Origin: Bacilli bacterium
Lineage (GTDB): Bacteria; Bacillota; Bacilli; Bacillales; Amphibacillaceae
Assembly: GCA_012518125.1 (NCBI GenBank)
Contig: JAAYTF010000035.1
Coordinates: 1 to 38,060 of the forward strand
Length of the DNA stretch: 38,060 bases
Direction of reading: 5' to 3'
The notes under the pieces are model-generated. The model was not told the origin of the DNA and ran no database searches. It saw only the letters and a list, made by a program, of their open reading frames with translations. Position numbers and translations under genes: made by a program. Shown piece after piece: positions 17,694 through 34,646 of this stretch (position 1 is its first letter; the number at the start of each line of letters is the position of its first letter).

Positions 17694-18161
17694 TCAATGG
17701 AAAAACAACGCTTTTACGATCGCGTATCCGTCGGAATGCCGCGATTTCCATTTAAAAGGCAGCAAATTGATAATTCCGATCCATATGTTGAACAAAAACA
17801 TCAAATAGATGACAAAACTTGGCATGGCCAACTGATGGACAGCATAAAAGCATAAGCCCAAGACGAGGCTGTTGAGCGGACCCATCATCGAGACGATCAC
17901 GATTTCCCGCCTCGACAGCGAATCGTTCTTTTTCGTTTCGGTTAAACTATGGACGAAAAAGATGCGCCTCACATCAAATGTCATATTGCCAACATTCAGG
18001 CGGAAAAGCGGTTTGCCAAGTCCGAGTGTCACCGTGATATGCGTCGCACGGACGAGTTTTCCTCCGATGACATGGCCCAACTCATGCCAAAACAGGCTTA
18101 AAGGAACCATTACGACGATGAAAACAAATAGGCTCAAGTGATCACCCGTTTGCTTATTCAT
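17694..18161 (-). CDS. Small site-2-protease (M50)-like membrane metalloprotease
   Basis: HELGH zinc motif ([15 protein letters not shown]) and [15 protein letters not shown]-terminal motif; ATGAATAA overlap with the ppiB stop. Confidence 0.7.
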
Positions 18162-18597
18162 CAAATACGACGATTTCTTTAATGACATCTCCTTGATTCA
18201 TGCTTTTTACATGTTCGATGCCTTTTGTCACTTGGCCAAAAACGGTGTGCACCCCGTCCAGATGCGGCTGCGGTTCGTGCACGATGAAAAATTGGCAGCT
18301 ACCCGTGTCTTTTCCAGCGTGCGCCATTGAAATCGCACCTTCGACATGTTTGTGCGGGTTTCCTTCCGTTTCGCATTTGATCGTGTAACCTGCGTTTCCG
18401 GTGCCATCGCCGATTGGGCAACCGCCTTGACTCACAAAGCCTGGAATGACGCGGTGAAACGTCAATCCGTTGTAGAACTTATCGTTCGCCAATTTCTGGA
18501 AGTTTGCCACCGTGTTCGGAGCCGCATCTTCGTACAATTCAAACTCGATTTTATTGCCATTTTCCATTAATATATAACCTGTTTTCATCTTATACAA
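18154..18597 (-). CDS. ppiB: Peptidyl-prolyl cis-trans isomerase (cyclophilin)
   Basis: 147 aa; [50 protein letters not shown]. Confidence 0.92.
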
Positions 18598-20086: not shown

Positions 20087-21544
20087 TCACGATTGGCGGT
20101 ACATATCTTTCGGACGGACGATGCGCGGCCGCCTTTTGTCCAAATTGATCGGAATGCGGAAGAGGAAGCGGAACATCGCCGGCAAGTTGAACGGAATTAG
20201 CGGCCACATATATGGAATTTCCAACGTCTTCAACTGGACCAAAAACAACACCGACAACGTGCAGCTGATTAAAAAGCCGTTTACGCCGAAGAAAATCGTC
20301 ATGATCAAGATGAACATTTTCATGATTTTATTGGCGACGCTCAATTCATAACTAGGCGTGACATAAAAACCGACGGTGCTGATCGCCACATAAAGGATGA
20401 CTTCCGGGCTGAACAAACCGACTTGAATGGCGATATCCCCGATCAACACCGCCGCAATCAAACCGAGCGCCGTCGCAAGCGGCGTCGGCGTATGGATGGC
20501 GGCCATCCGTAAAAATTCCACACCGACATCCGCCAAAATGAGCTGCAAGCCGATCGGCACATTCCCTTTTTCTTTCGGGCCGATATACGATAACGATTCG
20601 GGAAGGAGCGACGGCTCTTTTACAAACAAATACCAAACCGGAACCAACAAAATCGACGCCAACACGGCGCTGATCCGTATCCAGCGTATGAACGTCCCGG
20701 CGGCAGGCGTTTGGCGGAATTCTTCCGCATGTTCCAAATGGTCGAAATACGTCGTCGGCAGCATGATGACATTCGGCGACGTGTCGACGATCAAGATGAC
20801 ATATCCCGACAAAATGTGATGTGCCGCGACATCTGGCCTCTCGGTATAGCGGACGATTGGGAATGGATTCCACCCGTCTTTGAAAAACAGTTCCGTCAAA
20901 GCTTTATCCGCCATGACAATTTGGTCAATCTCGATTTCTTGCAATTTCGATTTCACCAATTTTACGAACTTTTCATTTGCGATCGAATCGATGTAACTGA
21001 TGCATATTTCCGTTTTCGAACGCTTTCCGACTTTGACGATTTCATTGCGCAAACCTTTATCTTTGATGCGACGGCGAATGAGGGCCGTGTTTGAAACGAT
21101 ATTTTCGGTGAAACCGTCCCGCGAGCCGCGGATGACGCGCTCGGTATCCGGTTCTTCTGGCTGTCTGCCCGGGTACATGCGGACATCGACGACATACGCT
21201 TCATCCTCGCCGTCGATGAAGATGACGATCAACCCTGAAAGCAACTCATCGGTCGCTTTGTCCAAAGCTTGCTCCGGAGTTACTTGCAGGTTGACGAGGC
21301 GATTTTTTATGATTTCGACGACTTTTTCTTTTTCCACTTCGTCGTCGTTGATCGAAACGAGTGTTTTCAACAATTCGATCACCGTCAAATCATCGACGAG
21401 CCCGTTGACAAAATAAACTTGGACTTTGCGGTCGAGGACGACGATTTCCCGAAACCCCAAGTCGAACGATTTCGTCGCACCCACTTCGTTTATCATATAT
21501 TCGGCATTTTTTTCCAATTGCTTCTGTACGAAATAATACGTCAT
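20087..21544 (-). CDS. spoVAF: Stage V sporulation protein AF (GerA-family-like)
   Basis: About 485 aa; GerA-like core VDTSPNVIMLPTTYFDHLEHAEEF, LRMAAIHTPTPLATALGLIAAVLIGDIAIQVGLFSPEVILYVAISTVGFYVTPSYELS; start at third codon Met behind AGGGG. Confidence 0.85.
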   Translation of the reverse strand: MTYYFVQKQLEKNAEYMINEVGATKSFDLGFREIVVLDRKVQVYFVNGLVDDLTVIELLKTLVSINDDEVEKEKVVEIIKNRLVNLQVTPEQALDKATDELLSGLIVIFIDGEDEAYVVDVRMYPGRQPEEPDTERVIRGSRDGFTENIVSNTALIRRRIKDKGLRNEIVKVGKRSKTEICISYIDSIANEKFVKLVKSKLQEIEIDQIVMADKALTELFFKDGWNPFPIVRYTERPDVAAHHILSGYVILIVDTSPNVIMLPTTYFDHLEHAEEFRQTPAAGTFIRWIRISAVLASILLVPVWYLFVKEPSLLPESLSYIGPKEKGNVPIGLQLILADVGVEFLRMAAIHTPTPLATALGLIAAVLIGDIAIQVGLFSPEVILYVAISTVGFYVTPSYELSVANKIMKMFILIMTIFFGVNGFLISCTLSVLFLVQLKTLEIPYMWPLIPFNLPAMFRFLFRIPINLDKRRPRIVRPKDMYRQS

Positions 21545-21555
21545 CACCATTACCC

Positions 21556-22008
21556 CTAGGATGAAATAATGAATTGTTTAATAATCTCATTCAAAAACAG
21601 CCACTGTATGAGCGATCCGAAAATTTTACCTAGAACGATGGCCATAAGTAGCATCAACATGTATCTTTCCAAATGAAGGCGTCTTGCAAGCAGTGGAAAT
21701 ACGTTCAACACTTCAACCAATGCCGCTGCGAGCATGCCGTTGAAAATGCCGTGAAAAAATCCCCAAAACACTAAAGCGAACGGCGTGAAGTTCGTATGAT
21801 AATCGAAAAATGAAAAAACCGTGCCCGTAAAAACACCGAGCATGAGCGAACTGATCAAATACGTCACAAATCTGCGCAGACGGATCAGTTGAACCATCCG
21901 TGGAATGACGCCCAAAACGATCATCAAACCGATGTAGACGCCACCGAACAAAAATCCACTTGAAAAGCCGACGAGCGCTTCCAGCAATTTAAAAATGACG
22001 TCTGTCAT
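21556..22008 (-). CDS. spoVAB: Stage V sporulation protein AB
   Basis: 150 aa polytopic protein (GFLFGGVYIGLMIVLGVIPRMVQL); directly downstream of spoVAA. Confidence 0.85.
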   Translation of the reverse strand: MTDVIFKLLEALVGFSSGFLFGGVYIGLMIVLGVIPRMVQLIRLRRFVTYLISSLMLGVFTGTVFSFFDYHTNFTPFALVFWGFFHGIFNGMLAAALVEVLNVFPLLARRLHLERYMLMLLMAIVLGKIFGSLIQWLFLNEIIKQFIISS

Positions 22009-22606
22009 CGTTCAAATCGTTTTCGTAATGACGAATATACTCGTCGATGTCTTGTTCGTATTTGAACAACTCGATTTCAAGTGGACTTGGTTCTTCATTG
22101 ATGCGCTTTTTAAACCAATGATTCAGAAACAAAACCATGCCGATGCCGAGGCCGATCGAATACGGGATTTGAATCCATAACGGTTGGGACGTCCGTTCAC
22201 CGGTGAAAATATAATGGATCGTTTCGTGCACTTCCGGCATGCCGACATCGTAATGAAAATTCATGATCGACATCGCCGTGCCGATGAATAAGACAACCCA
22301 AACGACAAAAACGAACACGACAGAAGGTTTAAACTTCCTCGATTCGACTTGTATGATCGTTTCTGTCGGTCCGACCAATTCGAATTCAACATCGGGAAAA
22401 ACTTTTTGCAAGATTGAAAGCAATAAGAACCCTTCGATGACGATAAATTCACCGTCTTTTTTTGTTACGGTATGGATGCTAACCTTCTGAAACTTTTGTT
22501 TGATGTCCTCTGGAGCTTGGATAAACGCAATATCGCCTAATTTCAGCTCGTCAGCATATTTCGCTTTCACTTTTTTTTGCATTCGCACATAAACCCGAGT
22601 CATCAT
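21989..22606 (-). CDS. spoVAA: Stage V sporulation protein AA
   Basis: 205 aa; VYVRMQKKVKAKYADELKLGDIAFIQAPEDIKQK..., two TM helices; overlaps spoVAB. Confidence 0.85.
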   Translation of the reverse strand: MMTRVYVRMQKKVKAKYADELKLGDIAFIQAPEDIKQKFQKVSIHTVTKKDGEFIVIEGFLLLSILQKVFPDVEFELVGPTETIIQVESRKFKPSVVFVFVVWVVLFIGTAMSIMNFHYDVGMPEVHETIHYIFTGERTSQPLWIQIPYSIGLGIGMVLFLNHWFKKRINEEPSPLEIELFKYEQDIDEYIRHYENDLNDDRRHF

Positions 22607-22706: not shown

Positions 22707-22751
22707 AAAATCCTTAAAAACCCAATTTCGAATTGAGTTTTTAAGGATTTT
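22707..22751 (-). terminator. Strong terminator at the 3' end of the WxL cassette
   Basis: AAAATCCTTAAAAAC (22707-22721) / GTTTTTAAGGATTTT (22737-22751), 15-bp perfect stem, T run on the minus-strand side. Confidence 0.85.
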
Positions 22752-22771
22752 GCGGCACCGAGCGCGCCATT

Positions 22772-23794
22772 TTAGGATTCTTGCGCTTTTTTCAGCTTGC
22801 GGATATAGATGAGAAGAGCGATGATGATAATAAGTAAAATGGATGTCGATGTAAGGACGAATCCGTTTAAATTTACTTTGTCATCTTCCAGTTTCACCGC
22901 CTCTTTATTGATGGTGGCAGCTTCGTTTTCTTCTATTGTGAATGATTCCTCCCAATTCCAACGACTCGTTTCGACTTTTGCTTCAACGACGGCCGTGTAA
23001 CTGCCCGGTTCCAACTTTTGATTGTCCCAATCGATGACGAAATCGATCGTCGTGTATGGCGCCATGCTGATTTGTTCTTTCATTTTCTCCTTCACAGGTT
23101 CCGTTTTGTCCGATTGATAAATTTTTGCATCGATGGCCAAACCTTCGACGATATTGGGAGAACGGTTTTCCAACGTAATGACGTTTGCCGTCCGATGATT
23201 GACGAGTTCCGCTCTTACACCTTTCAACTGTAAATCGATCGGGATTTCTTTGTCAGATTGCGAAAGGACAACACCAATCACGTACGCGTAGCGGTTTTGA
23301 ATGGATACACCTTCCGTTCGTTTGTCGTCCGCCTCTTTTTCAAAATGCAACCCTCCTAAAATGACACCGTCAAATGGTTGATCAGGCATTTGTAATTCGG
23401 CGAATGCTTTTATGCTGCCCTTTGGCGGCACGACGACCGTTTCTTCTCTAAATTGGAGCACTTCTGTCAATTGCAGTACGTCATCGTCCCAATGTTTTTC
23501 CATATCTTCATAAACGATTAAACCATTTTCGTTTGTCGAACTGTTCCGGACGGATAAATGGACCGTGATCGGTTTTGCTTCATGATTAAAAATTTCCGTT
23601 TCCAACAACTGCTGATCATTCGGCTTCACGCGCAAGTTGAAATAGGAATGCCCATTTTCAATTTGGTTTTCCGGCAATATTGCTCTGACGGAATAACCGA
23701 CATCTCCCTCTTCGGCGGAAGCAATCATCGGTAAGGAAAGAACAAAGCTGAAAAGCGCCACGCTCAAAGCGAACCATATCAAACTTTTTTTCAT
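22772..23794 (-). CDS. WxL-interacting protein (DUF916/DUF3324: WxL peptidoglycan-binding domain plus C-terminal TM anchor)
   Basis: Signal peptide; VGYSVRAILPENQIENGHSYFNLRVKPNDQQLLETEIFN...; KPITVHLSVRNSSTNENGLIVYE; C-terminal TM STSILLIIIIALLIYIRKLKK; next to two WxL-domain genes. Confidence 0.85.
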   Translation of the reverse strand: MKKSLIWFALSVALFSFVLSLPMIASAEEGDVGYSVRAILPENQIENGHSYFNLRVKPNDQQLLETEIFNHEAKPITVHLSVRNSSTNENGLIVYEDMEKHWDDDVLQLTEVLQFREETVVVPPKGSIKAFAELQMPDQPFDGVILGGLHFEKEADDKRTEGVSIQNRYAYVIGVVLSQSDKEIPIDLQLKGVRAELVNHRTANVITLENRSPNIVEGLAIDAKIYQSDKTEPVKEKMKEQISMAPYTTIDFVIDWDNQKLEPGSYTAVVEAKVETSRWNWEESFTIEENEAATINKEAVKLEDDKVNLNGFVLTSTSILLIIIIALLIYIRKLKKAQES

Positions 23795-23821
23795 GCGCCT
23801 TCTCCTTCTAAACGTGAAAGC

Positions 23822-24532
23822 TTAAAAACCAGGTGCATCATGCAATGTCCATGTGATCGTTGCTTGGTGGTCTCCAACCGTTGCGGCACCAGCTGGTATT
23901 TCCAACGTTACACTGTCGTTTACATTCGGAACTGACGGATTTACCGGAAACCAACGAGTAATCCATGTCCCGAGTCCTTCGTTTTCTTGAGCGTTCACGA
24001 CGATTTCCGCTGCTCCACCCGCATATAAGGCAACCGGATCGTTTGCGGTCGGTTCACCGCCGGTCGTCGTGGAAATGACCGATCCGTTTTTCAACGTCAA
24101 AACGGCTCCTGGCAGTGTCGTTTCGGTTTCATTGGCAAACGCGGACAATTGTGCGGTCACGTGCCAGCCGTCCCCGGTTCCGCGCCGGTCCGTCACTTGG
24201 ATGAACGGACGCAAAACGGTCGATTCATAAATGGTCGCCTCGCTTTCGATCGAATGCGAACCAAAATCAAGGGAAGATACGTAGTCCAATGTCAACGGTC
24301 CGGCGTCATTTGTCGGATCGTCACTCGGGTCTCCCGGCTCTACGCCTGGTTCAAAAGGTTGTGTCGGGTCTGTCGGATCGAGCACCGGGGGAGTGCCTTC
24401 GCCGGGCACAAATGTGATTGAAGCATTTGAAGTAAACGAACTTTGAGCAAAAGCCTTTGCCGCAGAAAACAATGCAAACGGCGCAAGAAGCAATACACTT
24501 AACATGAACAAACCAATTTTTCGTTTCATCAT
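23822..24532 (-). CDS. Small WxL-domain surface protein
   Basis: Signal peptide, Pro/Asp-rich linker PPVLDPTDPTQPFEPGVEPGDPSDDPTN, LDYVSSLDFGSHSI, GDGWHVTAQL and terminal HQATITWTLHDAP WxL signatures. Confidence 0.9.
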   Translation of the reverse strand: MMKRKIGLFMLSVLLLAPFALFSAAKAFAQSSFTSNASITFVPGEGTPPVLDPTDPTQPFEPGVEPGDPSDDPTNDAGPLTLDYVSSLDFGSHSIESEATIYESTVLRPFIQVTDRRGTGDGWHVTAQLSAFANETETTLPGAVLTLKNGSVISTTTGGEPTANDPVALYAGGAAEIVVNAQENEGLGTWITRWFPVNPSVPNVNDSVTLEIPAGAATVGDHQATITWTLHDAPGF

Positions 24533-24564
24533 TTTTCCTCCTATGTTTGATTGACATTTTTTTC

Positions 24565-25995
24565 TTAAGGCGCATCAACTAACGTCCAAATAATTTCGGT
24601 TTGATAATCACCAACTTTCACTTCATTCGGCTTGACAAAAATGAGCGGCCCTTCCTCCCGTTGCCAAGTCAACTCGGTAATCGGGTTTTCTTTCGTCGTG
24701 CCGGAAAAAATTGTCGCCGTTTCTTCGGTGAGGGTTATTTCCATTCCCTCTTTCAAACGGAACTTCAAAGCATCCGGCAACATTTCCGATTCGTCCGTCG
24801 TCGACGTAAGCGGCCGCGACAATTTCGCCTCCAACCTCCAAGGAGCATCATAACCTCTCGTATCTTGAATCGATATGGAAAATGGATCTTCTTTTCGGTG
24901 TGCATATAGCGGCGCGTACGGAATTGACGTCGTTTCAAATGAAATGGTTTCCGGTGCCTGATGAAACTGGAGCGTGCCCGTCCACGCCAATTGACCGATG
25001 GCAAGCGGATCGTCCAATATGCTCAAGTTGATGATTTGTTTTGTCGCTTGGCTCACAAATGTATAGCTTCCGGAAGGGGTGTAGGGAATGTATGGGAGCT
25101 CCATATGAAGGTCAAATCCGTAATACGTATAGTTTAATAAGTTCAAACTGAGCAATTGATCGAAGCGTATAACGACTTGATTGCCAACAATTTGAATTTC
25201 ATCCGTGTCAAACTCTCCTGTAGCGCGAATCTCGATCCCTAACAATCCTAAACCAGGAACGTCATAAAACGCACGCATGTTTTCTTGTGACATGATTTCG
25301 ACGATCGGCTGCGGCATTAGAAAAATGATATATGTCGAAGAAATGAGGTTTAAATTGATCAAACCTTCTCCGCGATAGTGCAAAACGACAATTGGTTTCC
25401 CTTCTTGGTTATAGGAAAGTGAGGCATTGAGCGTCGGATTGTTCAAGACGGTTACTCCGAGCAAGCCTTGTTGCGGGGTGATCGATTGCTGGGGCTTTGT
25501 TTGTTGAACAGTACGTTCAGCCATCTCTGGTTGTCCCATTTCGCCGTTGGTTCGACCGTTTTCATGCGGCGACGATGTGTTCGTTTCCATCATTTGCTCC
25601 TCATCTGGATTCTTTTTATCCTCTACATCGGTTTCGTCTTGTTCCTGGATATTCATTTCCCTGTCTAATGCAAAATCCAAAGTTTCATCTGTAAGTACGG
25701 CATCGTCTCTCTCGGTTTCAACTTCATTTTCATTGGTTTGGTCCCTTTTCGTATTTTCATGACTTGTTAAAACCTCAATTTCAAAATGTAGATTCTGCTC
25801 GTCGTATAAAAGGCGTTCGTTTACATCTATATCGACGGTATGCTCTTCGTCTTCAACCAGGCTCAACTCCTTTCCTTCCGACTTTGCGCGATCATCATCC
25901 AATGCGGATTGGTTCGCATAAATCGGTTCGTGGAAAAGCATGGTAAACAGGAGCAGGCACATCGAGAGAAATAGGGATTTGCGAAACGTAACCAT
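24565..25995 (-). CDS. Large WxL-domain surface protein with acidic low-complexity region and uncharacterised N-terminal module
   Basis: Signal peptide MVTFRKSLFLSMCLLLFTMLFHEPIYA; acidic Glu/Asp/Asn-rich region; C-terminal DAPWRLEAKLS and DYQTEIIWTLVDAP WxL signatures; GAGGAG ribosome site before ATG at 25995 (the ORF-track start at 26010 is a TTG inside it). Confidence 0.85.
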   Translation of the reverse strand: MVTFRKSLFLSMCLLLFTMLFHEPIYANQSALDDDRAKSEGKELSLVEDEEHTVDIDVNERLLYDEQNLHFEIEVLTSHENTKRDQTNENEVETERDDAVLTDETLDFALDREMNIQEQDETDVEDKKNPDEEQMMETNTSSPHENGRTNGEMGQPEMAERTVQQTKPQQSITPQQGLLGVTVLNNPTLNASLSYNQEGKPIVVLHYRGEGLINLNLISSTYIIFLMPQPIVEIMSQENMRAFYDVPGLGLLGIEIRATGEFDTDEIQIVGNQVVIRFDQLLSLNLLNYTYYGFDLHMELPYIPYTPSGSYTFVSQATKQIINLSILDDPLAIGQLAWTGTLQFHQAPETISFETTSIPYAPLYAHRKEDPFSISIQDTRGYDAPWRLEAKLSRPLTSTTDESEMLPDALKFRLKEGMEITLTEETATIFSGTTKENPITELTWQREEGPLIFVKPNEVKVGDYQTEIIWTLVDAP

Positions 25996-26041
25996 CGCGA
26001 TTCTCCTCAAAATTTACTAAAAAAATTTAAAAAATCTGTCA

Positions 26042-26073
26042 AAATATGATATAATTTTGTTTTTATCATATTT
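26042..26073. repeat. Inverted repeat in the leader of the WxL cassette (candidate operator)
   Basis: AAATATGATA (26042-26051) / TATCATATTT (26064-26073), 10-bp perfect arms, 12-nt spacer. Confidence 0.6.
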
Positions 26074-26163
26074 CTTCTTTACCATATAAATCGATAAAAA
26101 AGGAATGTTATTTTGACAATTAGTTACCGAAAAATTACAAAATGTAAAATCGTCCGCAAAAAA

Positions 26164-26191
26164 AGAAATCCAGCTTTAAATCTGGATTTCT
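26164..26191 (-). terminator. Terminator of the spoIIA/sigF operon
   Basis: AGAAATCCAG / CTGGATTTCT stem, 8-nt loop, followed on the minus strand by TTTTTTT. Confidence 0.85.
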
Positions 26192-26224: not shown

Positions 26225-26989
26225 TCAGCCACTCATCTGTTCTTTCATTTCTTGCAAAATTTTCTTTTCCAAGCGCGACACTTGCACTTGGGAAATCCCC
26301 AAACGGCGCGCCACTTCCGTCTGCGTTTGATCTTTATAATAGCGCAAATAGACAATTAATCTTTCTCTTTCTGTTAAGCTATTAATCGCTTCTTCCAATG
26401 ATAATTTATCAAACCAATAGCGGTCTTCATCGGCAATTTGATCGAGCAATGTGATTGGTTCGCCGCCGTTTTCATAGACGATTTCATGGATGGAATGCGG
26501 ATTGCGCACCGCTTCCTGCGCTTGAATGATTTCTTCAGGCGCAACATCGAGCGCCGCTGCGATTTCCGAAATCGTAGGCGAACGTTTTAATTGTTTCGTC
26601 AATTCCTCCTTTTTACGTTTCACCTTGTTGCCTAATTCTTTCAACGTGCGACTCACTTTGATCGTTCCGTCATCGCGGATGAACCGTTGAATTTCACCGA
26701 TGATCATCGGAACCGCATACGTGGAAAAACGGACGTCATATGATAAGTCAAATTTGTCGATCGCTTTCAATAAACCGATGCTGCCAATTTGAAACAAATC
26801 ATCCGGGTCATAGCCCCGATTGATGAAGCGCTGCACGACCGACCAGACGAGTCGGACGTTCTTTTCCACCAAGTAATCGCGCGCTTCCTGGTCGCCTTGC
26901 TGGCTACGTAAAATCAATTCCCGCACTTCATCGTTCGAGAGATGGCGGTTTTCCTTATCGTGCATTTGCAAATCGCTCATGGTTTTCAC
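26225..26989 (-). CDS. sigF: Forespore sigma factor SigF
   Basis: 254 aa; DDLFQIGSIGLLKAIDKFDLSYDVRFSTYAVPMIIGEIQRFIRDDG, GISQVQVSRLEKKIL. Confidence 0.95.
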   Translation of the reverse strand: MKTMSDLQMHDKENRHLSNDEVRELILRSQQGDQEARDYLVEKNVRLVWSVVQRFINRGYDPDDLFQIGSIGLLKAIDKFDLSYDVRFSTYAVPMIIGEIQRFIRDDGTIKVSRTLKELGNKVKRKKEELTKQLKRSPTISEIAAALDVAPEEIIQAQEAVRNPHSIHEIVYENGGEPITLLDQIADEDRYWFDKLSLEEAINSLTERERLIVYLRYYKDQTQTEVARRLGISQVQVSRLEKKILQEMKEQMSG

Positions 26990-29191: not shown

Positions 29192-30487
29192 CTATTTGAT
29201 GACATCGATGATCAATGGTTTCCCTTTCTTTTCAACGCTGATTTGTATGCTGTTTTCTATTATTTTTTTGATATGACGGATGTTTTCGTCGTTGGCATGA
29301 ATCGTACACAACACTTCGCCCTTTGTGACACGATCGCCCACCTTTTTATGCAAGTACAGTCCGACGCTCAAATCGATCACATCGTCTTTCGTCCGTCTGC
29401 CGGCGCCTAAGAGCATCGACGCCCGGCCGAGTTCGTCGGCGGCAATCTCCGCGACATAACCTGCCTCTTTCGCAAATACATCAATTTGATAGGTTGCCTC
29501 TTTGAACGATAACGTATCGATTACTTCGGCATTGCCCCCTTGCGCTTCGACGAGACGTTTAAAGTATTGTAACGCTTTTCCGTTTTCGATGTTCGTTTTT
29601 AACATCGCTTTTGCTTCTTCGAGGCTGTCGGCCTTTTCGCCTAGTACGACCATGTGAGCACCCAATTCCAACATCAGTTCCGTCAAGTCTTTCGGGCCTT
29701 CCCCTTTCAGTGCGAGGATCGCTTCTTTTACTTCCAAGGCGTTTCCGATGGCAAAACCGAGCGGTTCATCCATGTTGGTAAGCAGCGCAACCGTTTCTTT
29801 ACCGACGTTTTTTCCAATTTCGACCATCGTCTTTGCCAGCTTTCTTGCACTATTGACGTCTTTCATGAATGCACCGCTGCCAACTTTGACGTCGAGGACG
29901 ATTTTGTCGGCGCCCGATGCGATTTTCTTGCTCATGATGGAACTCGCGATTAAAGGGATCGAATTGACGGTGGCGGTGACATCTCGCAAACTATACAATT
30001 TTTTGTCAGCCGGAGCTAGATTTTCCGATTGGCCGATGATTGCGAGCCCGATGTCATTTACTTGTCTGATGAATTGTTCTTTCGTCATTTCGACGTTGAA
30101 CCCTTCTATCGCTTCCAATTTGTCGATCGTGCCGCCGGTATGCCCCAACCCCCGGCCGCTCATTTTCGGAATCGGCACACCGCAAGAAGCGACCAACGGG
30201 ATCAGGCAAAGCGTCGTTTTATCGCCCACGCCGCCGGAAGAGTGTTTGTCGACTTTGACTCCGTCGATTTCACTCAAATCCAACATGTCGCCCGATCGGG
30301 CCATCGCCATCGTCAAATGGGCGCTTTCTTCATCGTCCATTCCTTGAAAATAGATGGCCATAAGCAGCGCACTCGCTTGATAATCGGGAATTTCGCCATT
30401 CGCATATCCGTGGACGAAAAAGTCGATTTCCGCTTTTGCAAGCGGGTATCCGTCACGCTTTTTTACGATGATGTCATACATGCGCAC
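29192..30487 (-). CDS. pdp: Pyrimidine-nucleoside phosphorylase
   Basis: 431 aa; [60 protein letters not shown] start. Confidence 0.95.
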
Positions 30488-30779: not shown

Positions 30780-31679
30780 TTATTTTTCGATGATTCCTTT
30801 TTCAATCAAAAATTCCCGTGCGACATCTTCCGGTTTTTCTTTATCGATGTCGACGCGCGCATTCATCTTCAACATATCTTCTTCACTGATTTGCCCCGCT
30901 AGATGATTCAACGCTTTTTCCAACTCAGGGAATTTTTCGAGCGTCTCCATTCTGACGATTGGCACCGCATCATATACAGGGAACAGATGTTGATCGTCCG
31001 TTACCGTTTTAAACGCGAACAATTGGATCCTGCTATCCGTTGTAAAGGCCGGAATGACATCGACTTCACCATTTTTTAAAGCATCGTACATGATGTTGGG
31101 GTCAAGGCTTTTCGTATCCGCAAATTCAAACGGATAGACTCTAACCAAATCGTCGTAACCTTCTCCCTTTCGTTCATAAAACGCGTGCGGTGCACCAAAG
31201 ACCAATTCTCTTTCTTTGGAAATTTCCGCCAGCTCACTAATCGTTTCCGCCTCAAAATCGCTGTCGCCACGAAAGGCCAACGCGTAGGCATTTTCAAAGC
31301 CGAGCGGTTCGAGCCAAGTGACGTTGAACCTTTCTTCATAACCTGCTTTGACGCGTTCATAGACGCTTTCCGGACTTTCTCCCGGTTCGCTTTCCAACTG
31401 CAATACATCCATGAGCCCTGTGCCGGTATATTCGACGTAAAGGTCGATTTCCCCTTTTTCGATCGCTGGCGTCAAGATCGAAACTTCACCCAAACCTTCT
31501 TTGTAGACGACGTGATAATCCGTTTTATCTTCAATCACATAACCTAACAAGTACGGCAAAATATATTGTTCCGTCCATGGTTTGCCGCTGATGATGATTT
31601 CCTCGTTTTTTTGGCTGCAGCTTCCCAACAAGAACAAAAATGAAACAACTGTCACAAATAAAAGATGTTTTTTCATCAC
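30780..31679 (-). CDS. Osmoprotectant (glycine betaine/choline/carnitine type) ABC transporter substrate-binding lipoprotein
   Basis: 299 aa; lipobox FLLGSC; SGKPWTEQYILPYLLGYVIEDKT, GEIDLYVEYTGTGLMDVL of the OpuAC-type fold. Confidence 0.88.
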   Translation of the reverse strand: MMKKHLLFVTVVSFLFLLGSCSQKNEEIIISGKPWTEQYILPYLLGYVIEDKTDYHVVYKEGLGEVSILTPAIEKGEIDLYVEYTGTGLMDVLQLESEPGESPESVYERVKAGYEERFNVTWLEPLGFENAYALAFRGDSDFEAETISELAEISKERELVFGAPHAFYERKGEGYDDLVRVYPFEFADTKSLDPNIMYDALKNGEVDVIPAFTTDSRIQLFAFKTVTDDQHLFPVYDAVPIVRMETLEKFPELEKALNHLAGQISEEDMLKMNARVDIDKEKPEDVAREFLIEKGIIEK

Positions 31680-31687
31680 AATCTCCC

Positions 31688-32329
31688 TTATATTTTTAAT
31701 CCTTTCGGCGTGACGCCTTTTTCGACGAGCTTCAACAACACATCAAACAAAATGGCCAACAGCGCAACCGGCACTGCCCCGGCGATGACGAGCGCGTTAT
31801 TGTACGATTGCAGACCGCGGTAAATGATGTCGCCTAAACCTCCGGCACCGACGAACGTCGCCAGTGTCGCAATGCCGACGGTGAGCACCGTCGCCGTGCG
31901 GATCCCAGCCATGATGAATGGCAAGGCGATCGGTAGTTCGATTTTAAACAGCACTTGATTCGGCGTCATCCCCATGCCGCTTCCCGCTTCGATGATTGCC
32001 GGATCGACGCTCGTAATTCCGGTGTAGACGTTGCGCACGATCGGCAACAATGCGTAAATGACGAGTGCGACGAGCGCCGTCTTCGAACCGATGCCGATGA
32101 TTGGAACGAGGAACCCGAACAACGCTAAGCTCGGAATCGTCTGCAATATCGCCGTGACACCGATGATCGGTTCGGCCAGCTTCCGGTATTTCGAAACGAA
32201 CAATCCGAGCGGCAAGGCGATCAAAACCGCAATGGCCAATGCAATAAACGAAAGGAAAATATGTTGCAAAAACGCATCGACGATCAAATCTTGACGATCG
32301 CGGATCGTATCGATTAATACATTCATCAT
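31688..32329 (-). CDS. Osmoprotectant ABC transporter permease
   Basis: 213 aa; ILQTIPSLALFGFLVPIIGIGSKTALVALVIYALLPIVRNVYTGI, EAGSGMGMTPNQVLFKIELPIALPFIMAGIRTA. Confidence 0.9.
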   Translation of the reverse strand: MMNVLIDTIRDRQDLIVDAFLQHIFLSFIALAIAVLIALPLGLFVSKYRKLAEPIIGVTAILQTIPSLALFGFLVPIIGIGSKTALVALVIYALLPIVRNVYTGITSVDPAIIEAGSGMGMTPNQVLFKIELPIALPFIMAGIRTATVLTVGIATLATFVGAGGLGDIIYRGLQSYNNALVIAGAVPVALLAILFDVLLKLVEKGVTPKGLKI

Positions 32330-33312
32330 TCGAATCCTTTCACCCCCGTGATGGCTTTCAACAAATCGGCCGCATGGACGTAGCCGATCACTTTCTCATC
32401 TTTCCGTTTTACTTCTAGGGCATGTTTGTCCTCTTTCTCCAAAAGACGGACCGCTTCCTTGATCGATGCCGTGTCGAGGACGGAAGTGTACGGCTCGATT
32501 GGATTGCGTTTGAAGACGTGTTTAAATTCACGGATCGGCCTTTCTGCAACCGGCCACATATTTTCGAGCCGTTTTTCACCGATAAATTCACGGACGAAAG
32601 CATTTTTCTGCCGTTTGATCAGTTCTTCCGGCATTGCCATTTGTTCGATTTTTCCATCGCGCATGATGATGATGTAATCGGCGATATCGAGCGCTTCATC
32701 CATATCGTGCGTGACAAAAACGATCGTTTTATGAATTTTTTGCTGCAACAATTTCAGTTCATGTTGCAATTGTTCCCGGCTGATCGGGTCGAGCGCGGAA
32801 AACGGCTCATCCATCAAAATGATGTCCGGATCGCCGGCAAGCGCCCGGATGACGCCGACACGCTGCTGCTGTCCGCCGGAAAGTTCGACGGGATATTTGT
32901 GCATGTATGTTTCGGGGGGCAAATTGACCATTTCCAAAAGTTCCTGCACCCGCTGTTTCGTCTTTTTTTTGTCCCAGCCGAGCAAATTCGGCACGAGAGC
33001 GATATTTTCTTCGATCGTCATATGCGGGATGAGCCCGATTTGTTGAATCACATAGCCGATCGATCGCCTCAGTTCGACGACGTTCATTTTACTTACCGGT
33101 TTATCGTCGATGAACACTTCGCCTTCCGTCGGATTTTCCAAGCGGTTGATCATCCGCATCAACGTCGTTTTCCCGCTTCCTGAGGGGCCGATAATGACGG
33201 TCAGCTTATTTTTTGGTATGTCAACCGTGATGTTTTTAAGGGCTTCCGTTCCGTCTTTGAAACGTTTCGTTACCCTTTCAAAGCGAATAATTTTTCCCAC
33301 TCCCTTGTCCAC
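32326..33312 (-). CDS. Osmoprotectant ABC transporter ATP-binding protein (ProV/OpuCA-like, C-terminal CBS region)
   Basis: GPSGSGKTTLMRMINRLENPT, LSGGQQQRVGVIRALA, ILMDEPFSALDP, CBS-like C-terminus; start codon uncertain (GTG). Confidence 0.9.
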   Translation of the reverse strand: MDKGVGKIIRFERVTKRFKDGTEALKNITVDIPKNKLTVIIGPSGSGKTTLMRMINRLENPTEGEVFIDDKPVSKMNVVELRRSIGYVIQQIGLIPHMTIEENIALVPNLLGWDKKKTKQRVQELLEMVNLPPETYMHKYPVELSGGQQQRVGVIRALAGDPDIILMDEPFSALDPISREQLQHELKLLQQKIHKTIVFVTHDMDEALDIADYIIIMRDGKIEQMAMPEELIKRQKNAFVREFIGEKRLENMWPVAERPIREFKHVFKRNPIEPYTSVLDTASIKEAVRLLEKEDKHALEVKRKDEKVIGYVHAADLLKAITGVKGFE

Positions 33313-33467: not shown

Positions 33468-34646
33468 TTATTTTATATCGGATAAGAAGCTTTGACCGAA
33501 CGGGGGCATTTGGACGTTGAAGTTGTCGGCGATCGTTGCGCCGACATCGGCGAATGTATCCCGGACTTGCCATTTTCGGCCCAACCCAATGCTAGGCGTA
33601 TATACCAACAGCGGCACGTATTCCCGTGTATGGTCGGTGCCGTGAAACGTCGGGTCGTTGCCGTGATCGGCGGTAATCATGACTAAATCATTTTTGTTGG
33701 CGATTGGCAAGAAGTTTGCCAATTGCTCATCGAAACGTTCAAGCGCCTTTTTATACCCTTCCGGATTGCGGCGATGACCGTACTTTGAGTCAAAATCTAC
33801 TAAATTCAAAAAACATAATCCGGAAAAATCTTTCTTTGCCACATCCATCAGCTTGTCCATCCCATCATCGTTGTCTTTCGACTTGATCGCTTCGGTGATG
33901 CCTTCGCCGTCAAAAATGTCGTAAATTTTGCCGATGGAAATGACATCAAAGCCGGCATCTTGCAAGAAATTCAACACCGTCGGCTGAAAAGGTTTCACCG
34001 CATAATCTTTGCGGTTTTCCGTTCGGACGAATGCCCCGGGTTTTCCGATGAACGGTCTTGCGATGACGCGGCCTACCAAATAAGGCTCCTTTAACGTCAA
34101 CTCTCTTGCCATCTCAGAAATTCGGTACAATTCGTCAAGCGGGACGATGTCTTCGTGGGCGGCAATCTGCAAAACCGAATCCGCCGACGTATAAACGATG
34201 ATGGCGCCCGTTTCCATATGTTCCAAACCCAGTTCTTCGATGATTTTCGTCCCGGAAGCGACTTTGTTGCCGATCACTTTCCGCTTTGTGCGGCGTTCGA
34301 GTTCAGCGATCAACGATTCGGGAAATCCGTCCGGAAACGTGCGGAACGGCTCGGTGATGCGGAGCCCCATCAACTCCCAATGTCCGGTCATCGTATCTTT
34401 GCCAACGGAAGCTTCCTGCATTTTCGTGTAGAACGCTTTCGGTTCGTCCACTTTTTTTACCCCTTCGATCGGGGCGATGTTGCCCAATCCTAACGCTTCT
34501 AACTGCGGCAATTCGAGGCCGCCCGCCCATTTTGCAAGATTGCCGAGCGTATTTGCCCCTTCATCGCCGTATAATCCTGCATCCGGCGCTTCGCCGATTC
34601 CGACTGAATCAAGCACGATGAGGAAAACGCGTTTAAATCGATTCAT
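33468..34646 (-). CDS. deoB: Phosphopentomutase
   Basis: 392 aa; [56 protein letters not shown]. Confidence 0.95.

Follow-up and report, generated by a model that had tools for sequence, protein, structure and literature searches.

A minimal WxL surface-protein operon located between sigF and spoVAA in a Bacillales genome

Gene content and limits of the operon

The window analyzed is the whole contig JAAYTF010000035.1 (38,060 nucleotides, assembly GCA_012518125.1), from a bacterium of the Amphibacillaceae. It carries three consecutive genes that encode a large WxL protein, a small WxL protein and a WxL-interacting protein (WxLIP), all on the same strand, with intergenic gaps of 32 and 27 bases and a ribosome-binding site in each gap (Table 1). 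A terminator-like hairpin stands at each end: the upstream one has a folding energy of −18.7 kcal/mol (z −4.3) and is followed by a run of T residues, and the downstream one has a folding energy of −22.4 kcal/mol (z −5.2). The sequence favours the ATG at 25995 as the start codon for the large WxL protein over the listed TTG at 26010, because the TTG overlaps the ribosome-binding site.

Both flanks were identified by profile searches. The gene upstream matched the TIGR02885 equivalog model of SigF with 366 bits (cut-off 321), and the gene downstream matched PF12164, the SpoVAA model, with an E-value of 5.9e-16. The order upstream of the cassette is dacF, spoIIAA, spoIIAB and sigF, and downstream it is spoVAA, spoVAB, a spoVAF-like gene, lysA and ppiB. 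The initial annotation had described three consecutive minus-strand WxL, WxL and WxLIP genes, forming a complete and self-contained minimal locus lodged between the sigF and spoVA operons. The domain matches of all three genes, the hairpin at each end and the identity of the flanks bear this out, and the limits it gave, 22707 to 26191, are the exact outer limits of the two hairpins. No fourth gene encoding an LPxTG partner (CscD) was found between the hairpins, a repeat search revealed no convincing border repeats or mobile element around the cassette, and no tRNA or Rfam matches were obtained in the window.

Table 1. Features of the WxL operon and its flanking genes (positions in the window).
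Feature	Position	Strand	Basis
WxL operon, order large WxL, small WxL, WxLIP, hairpin to hairpin	22707-26191	minus	
Terminator-like hairpin at the end of spoIIA (sigF), bounding the cassette upstream	26164-26191	minus	inverted repeat, fold
Leader, A+T-rich, presumed promoter region of the operon	25996-26163	minus	sequence
Large WxL protein, 476 aa	24565-25995	minus	PF13731 at cut-off, homologues
Small WxL protein, 236 aa	23822-24532	minus	PF13731
WxLIP (DUF916/PGBD, DUF3324/HBD, C-terminal transmembrane helix), 340 aa	22772-23794	minus	PF06030, PF11797
Strong terminator-like hairpin ending the WxL operon, before spoVAA	22707-22751	minus	21-bp stem, U-rich tail
sigF flank, forespore sigma factor, last spoIIA gene	26225-26989	minus	TIGR02885
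spoVAA flank, opening the local spoVA operon	21989-22606	minus	PF12164

Two further observations concern the downstream side. The spoVA genes of this genome are split, with spoVAA, spoVAB and spoVAF at 20087-22606 of the window and two genes of the SpoVAC/SpoVAEB family on another contig (C188). A gene for a short M50-type (site-2-protease-like) membrane peptidase (17694-18188) adjoins ppiB.

The encoded proteins and known WxL systems

Inspection of the sequences revealed hydrophobic N-termini and AxA-like cleavage sites in all three proteins. The small WxL protein, which consists of a putative signal peptide, a short Pro/Asp-rich linker and the WxL domain, matched PF13731 over residues 30-234 (E = 3.9e-48, 164.7 bits). 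Its two motifs are WHV at 123 and WTL at 228, so that the tryptophans lie 105 residues apart; the published spacing for small WxL proteins is ∼106 residues (PMC9772566). It shares 49-52% identity with the small WxL proteins of relatives. The WxLIP matched PF06030 (WxLIP_PGBD) over residues 34-153 with an E-value of 7.9e-32 and PF11797 (WxLIP_HBD) over residues 161-297 with an E-value of 5.7e-41, and its C-terminus is hydrophobic in sequence. A homologue of solved structure is EfmWxLIP1 of Enterococcus faecium (PDB 9I1Y, E = 2.5e-28). Identity to relatives is 32-43%.

The large WxL protein scored barely above the cut-off of PF13731 (25.2 bits against 25). Its motifs are WRL at 386 and WTL at 470, 84 residues apart (the published spacing for large WxL proteins is ∼68 residues; PMC9772566), and the protein ends in WTLVDAP. 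Because both W-x-L motifs are present and four other species have large WxL proteins that align with its C-terminus, its predicted membership of this class is secure despite the marginal Pfam score. The protein comprises a putative signal peptide, an acidic linker, an N-terminal beta domain of ∼160 amino acids and the C-terminal WxL domain. The N-terminal domain (residues about 178-340, window 24976-25464) has no Pfam model. In an iterated profile search it was also present in the large WxL proteins from Salinicoccus, Bhargavaea and two species of Oceanobacillus. These matches point to a conserved domain without a name in Bacillales large WxL proteins. An AlphaFold2 model of the large WxL protein is all-beta (pLDDT 75, pTM 0.51). 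Foldseek matches of this model were generic beta-sandwich proteins with TM-scores near 0.3 or below and were not used for assignment.

The operon was compared with the csc clusters of Lactiplantibacillus plantarum, the WxL loci of E. faecium and the elr locus of Enterococcus faecalis. They have the same adjacent genes (CscA/WxLIP, CscB/small and CscC/large), two W-x-L-type motifs per WxL protein, and a WxLIP built of DUF916, DUF3324 and a C-terminal transmembrane helix. Unlike the csc and elr clusters, the operon lacks CscD, a common partner reported to be useful but not essential (PMC9772566), its large WxL protein has the unnamed N-terminal domain, and its site is the sigF-spoVAA interval. 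The module shares gene order and N-domain family with those of Salinicoccus hispanicus, Bhargavaea massiliensis, Oceanobacillus senegalensis and O. halophilus; Bhargavaea, however, has an additional WxL gene past the WxLIP gene, and the large WxL proteins of Salinicoccus and Oceanobacillus carry additional repeat domains. Bacillales contributed 96 of the 938 WxL sequences in a count of 2022 (PMC9772566), and csc clusters were reported in 2006 in Bacillus cereus, B. thuringiensis and a B. anthracis plasmid (PMC1534035). The latter clusters, likened here by description, likewise belong to endospore-forming Bacillaceae and lie on the chromosome or on plasmids; the available portion of that report does not mention adjacency to sigF. 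In the literature on WxL proteins together with sigF or spores we found nothing on point. By its sequence the operon is identified as a minimal WxL (Csc) cluster of the published kind, of a known family, at an unusual address. Pseudogracilibacillus, the genus to which the source genome probably belongs, gains a complete WxL operon with it.

Occupancy of the sigF-spoVAA interval

The distance between the profile matches of sigF and spoVAA was compared across the 142 family genomes in which the two share a contig and a strand (the value for genome G001 was taken from a separate search). The median is ∼218 bases, and the 3636 bases found here are the maximum. In the four congeners that cover the region, 109-396 bases separate the two alignments. 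WxL genes occur in 15 of 161 family genomes and a WxLIP above cut-off in 16 of them, a patchy distribution, and none of the 161 has another WxL or WxLIP gene near sigF. A WxL cassette at this site was not found in any other tested genome; the site is not conserved.

Long intervals elsewhere contain other genes: an IS110 transposase in one genome (G104), a DDE transposase in another (G117), an octopine-dehydrogenase-like gene in a third (G030) and, in four genomes of one other genus, spoIIP, which encodes a sporulation wall hydrolase. Since long gaps hold different genes in other genera, these data support the view that the gap is a tolerant intergenic site of which the WxL operon is one of several occupants. 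The spoIIA-spoVA interval, usually about 100-600 bases, accepts inserts of quite different genes, and the spoIIP case indicates that sporulation genes too can occupy it. In all four spoIIP loci the gene lies on the strand opposite to sigF.

The initial annotation had proposed that a self-contained cell-surface module, a candidate for a previously undescribed system, was inserted into the sporulation region. Comparison of the sigF-spoVAA content upholds the unusual position and the absence of the cassette there in relatives. The novelty of the system is not supported, given the Bacillus csc clusters reported in 2006 and the unrelated genes that fill the slot in other genera.

Elsewhere in the window, a three-gene OpuC-like osmoprotectant ABC transporter (30780-33312) lies between drm (33468-34646) and a pyrimidine-nucleoside phosphorylase gene (29192-30487). 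In four congeners the latter two genes are directly adjacent; therefore the transporter is a second lineage-specific insertion in the backbone.

Relatives, origin and likely role of the module

Among the closest WxLIPs of named genomes, those of a Pseudogracilibacillus metagenome-assembled genome (G004) and of Bacillus sp. B15-48 are 44% identical to the window protein. Over the best segment, identity is 46% with B. massiliensis, 40% with S. hispanicus and 37-42% with O. senegalensis and O. halophilus. The order large WxL, small WxL, WxLIP is kept in Salinicoccus, Bhargavaea and both Oceanobacillus genomes, where neither sigF nor spoVAA lies within ∼7 kb of the module. Among the best 80 WxLIP loci of named genomes, neither sigF nor spoVAA was present in the fetched flanks, and one Paenibacillus locus had a distant spoVAF/GerA-like gene. 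A SigF match above cut-off was obtained in the two Oceanobacillus genomes and in Bacillus sp. B15-48; Bhargavaea scored just under it (310 bits), and the best match in S. hispanicus reached 177 bits. The three-gene module is therefore not confined to genomes with a SigF match above cut-off.

In the WxLIP tree the window protein groups with those of Pseudogracilibacillus, Bacillus sp. B15-48, Bhargavaea and Salinicoccus. Lateral transfer of the cassette is plausible, though not proven, because this group spans three families but its support is weak (84/51). Base composition does not set the cassette apart as a recent acquisition, since its third-codon G+C (0.484) is just slightly under that of its neighbours (0.49-0.67). 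Relatives of the WxLIP were present on 106 plasmid records, mostly from Enterococcus, none of which reached 60% identity. No near-identical copy of the cassette was found on plasmids, and no relatives of the WxLIP were found on viral contigs. The matches in phage records came from Listeria and Enterococcus only, with no annotation among the matches listed; these were left out of account, as carry-over of host DNA into the records is possible.

The reading that we favour, with a probability of about 0.8, is that a canonical minimal WxL surface-display operon entered, or stayed in, the tolerant spoIIA-spoVA gap. It is most likely a module for surface adhesion, inherited laterally or sporadically, that acts on vegetative cells. 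The three proteins would be secreted via their putative signal peptides and build a WxL complex at the cell surface. By analogy with characterized systems, the DUF916 domain of the WxLIP, a putative peptidoglycan-binding domain, would be expected to bind and stabilize the WxL domain, and the N-terminal beta domain of the large WxL protein, together with the DUF3324 domain of the WxLIP, would face outward and bind a surface, a glycan or the host. The operon would have a promoter of its own, and terminators on both sides would insulate it, so that the neighbouring sporulation genes would be bystanders. The sporulation neighbourhood of the operon is then probably incidental for sporulation biology.

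An origin within the lineage, in which an old inherited Bacillales module was relocated in the chromosome, would differ from the favoured reading in origin and not in function. We regard it as a fair possibility, though less likely than not. It is in line with the base composition of the cassette, close to that of its neighbours, and with the small WxL-WxLIP pair that G004 carries elsewhere, on a short contig of 3712 bases (51% and 44% identical, respectively). However, G004 is the one congener of six with a WxL gene (G006 has a WxLIP alone), and the nearest relatives are scattered across Bacillaceae, Caryophanaceae and Staphylococcaceae. Neither direction, relocation or gain from outside, is firmly supported. 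That the cassette stems from a different organism of the same sample and was misjoined during assembly is very improbable. The draft assembly is fragmented (195 contigs), and no other tested genome has the cassette at this site. Against a misjoin, conserved sporulation genes flank the cassette on either side, well inside a contig of 38 kb; its two limits coincide with intergenic hairpins, there is no break in composition, and contamination is 0.01%.

The proposal of a previously undescribed forespore or spore system is not supported. In this reading the products would form a wall-binding complex of the forespore or spore, with the operon under SigF/SigG or the mother-cell factors SigE/SigK and the adhesin on the spore cortex or surface. 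The sole evidence for such a role is the position between sigF and spoVAA, a slot that a sporulation gene, spoIIP, fills in another genus. Several results speak against it. A terminator-like hairpin stands between the operon and each of its two neighbours, sigF and spoVAA, and relatives do not share the site. Moreover, Bhargavaea, Salinicoccus and Oceanobacillus have the same gene order at places where neither gene is near, and among them S. hispanicus has a SigF match below cut-off. Eight sigma-factor consensuses were sought ahead of the operon, and none, those of SigF, SigG, SigE and SigK included, scored above dinucleotide shuffles. This test had little power, because the control regions ahead of dacF, spoIIAA and spoVAA, known sporulation genes of the window, were equally silent. 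We consider a spore complex very unlikely, and likewise forespore or late sporulation control of an operon whose products would coat the spore or the germinating cell with an adhesive layer bound to the wall. If true, this would be the first WxL system to take part in sporulation and would tie a complex of the gut-adhesion type to spores.

Upstream of the large WxL gene, a 13-nt inverted repeat was observed at 26042-26073 (AAATATGATATAA / TTTTATCATATTT). It folds weakly (z −2.1) and is a possible operator.
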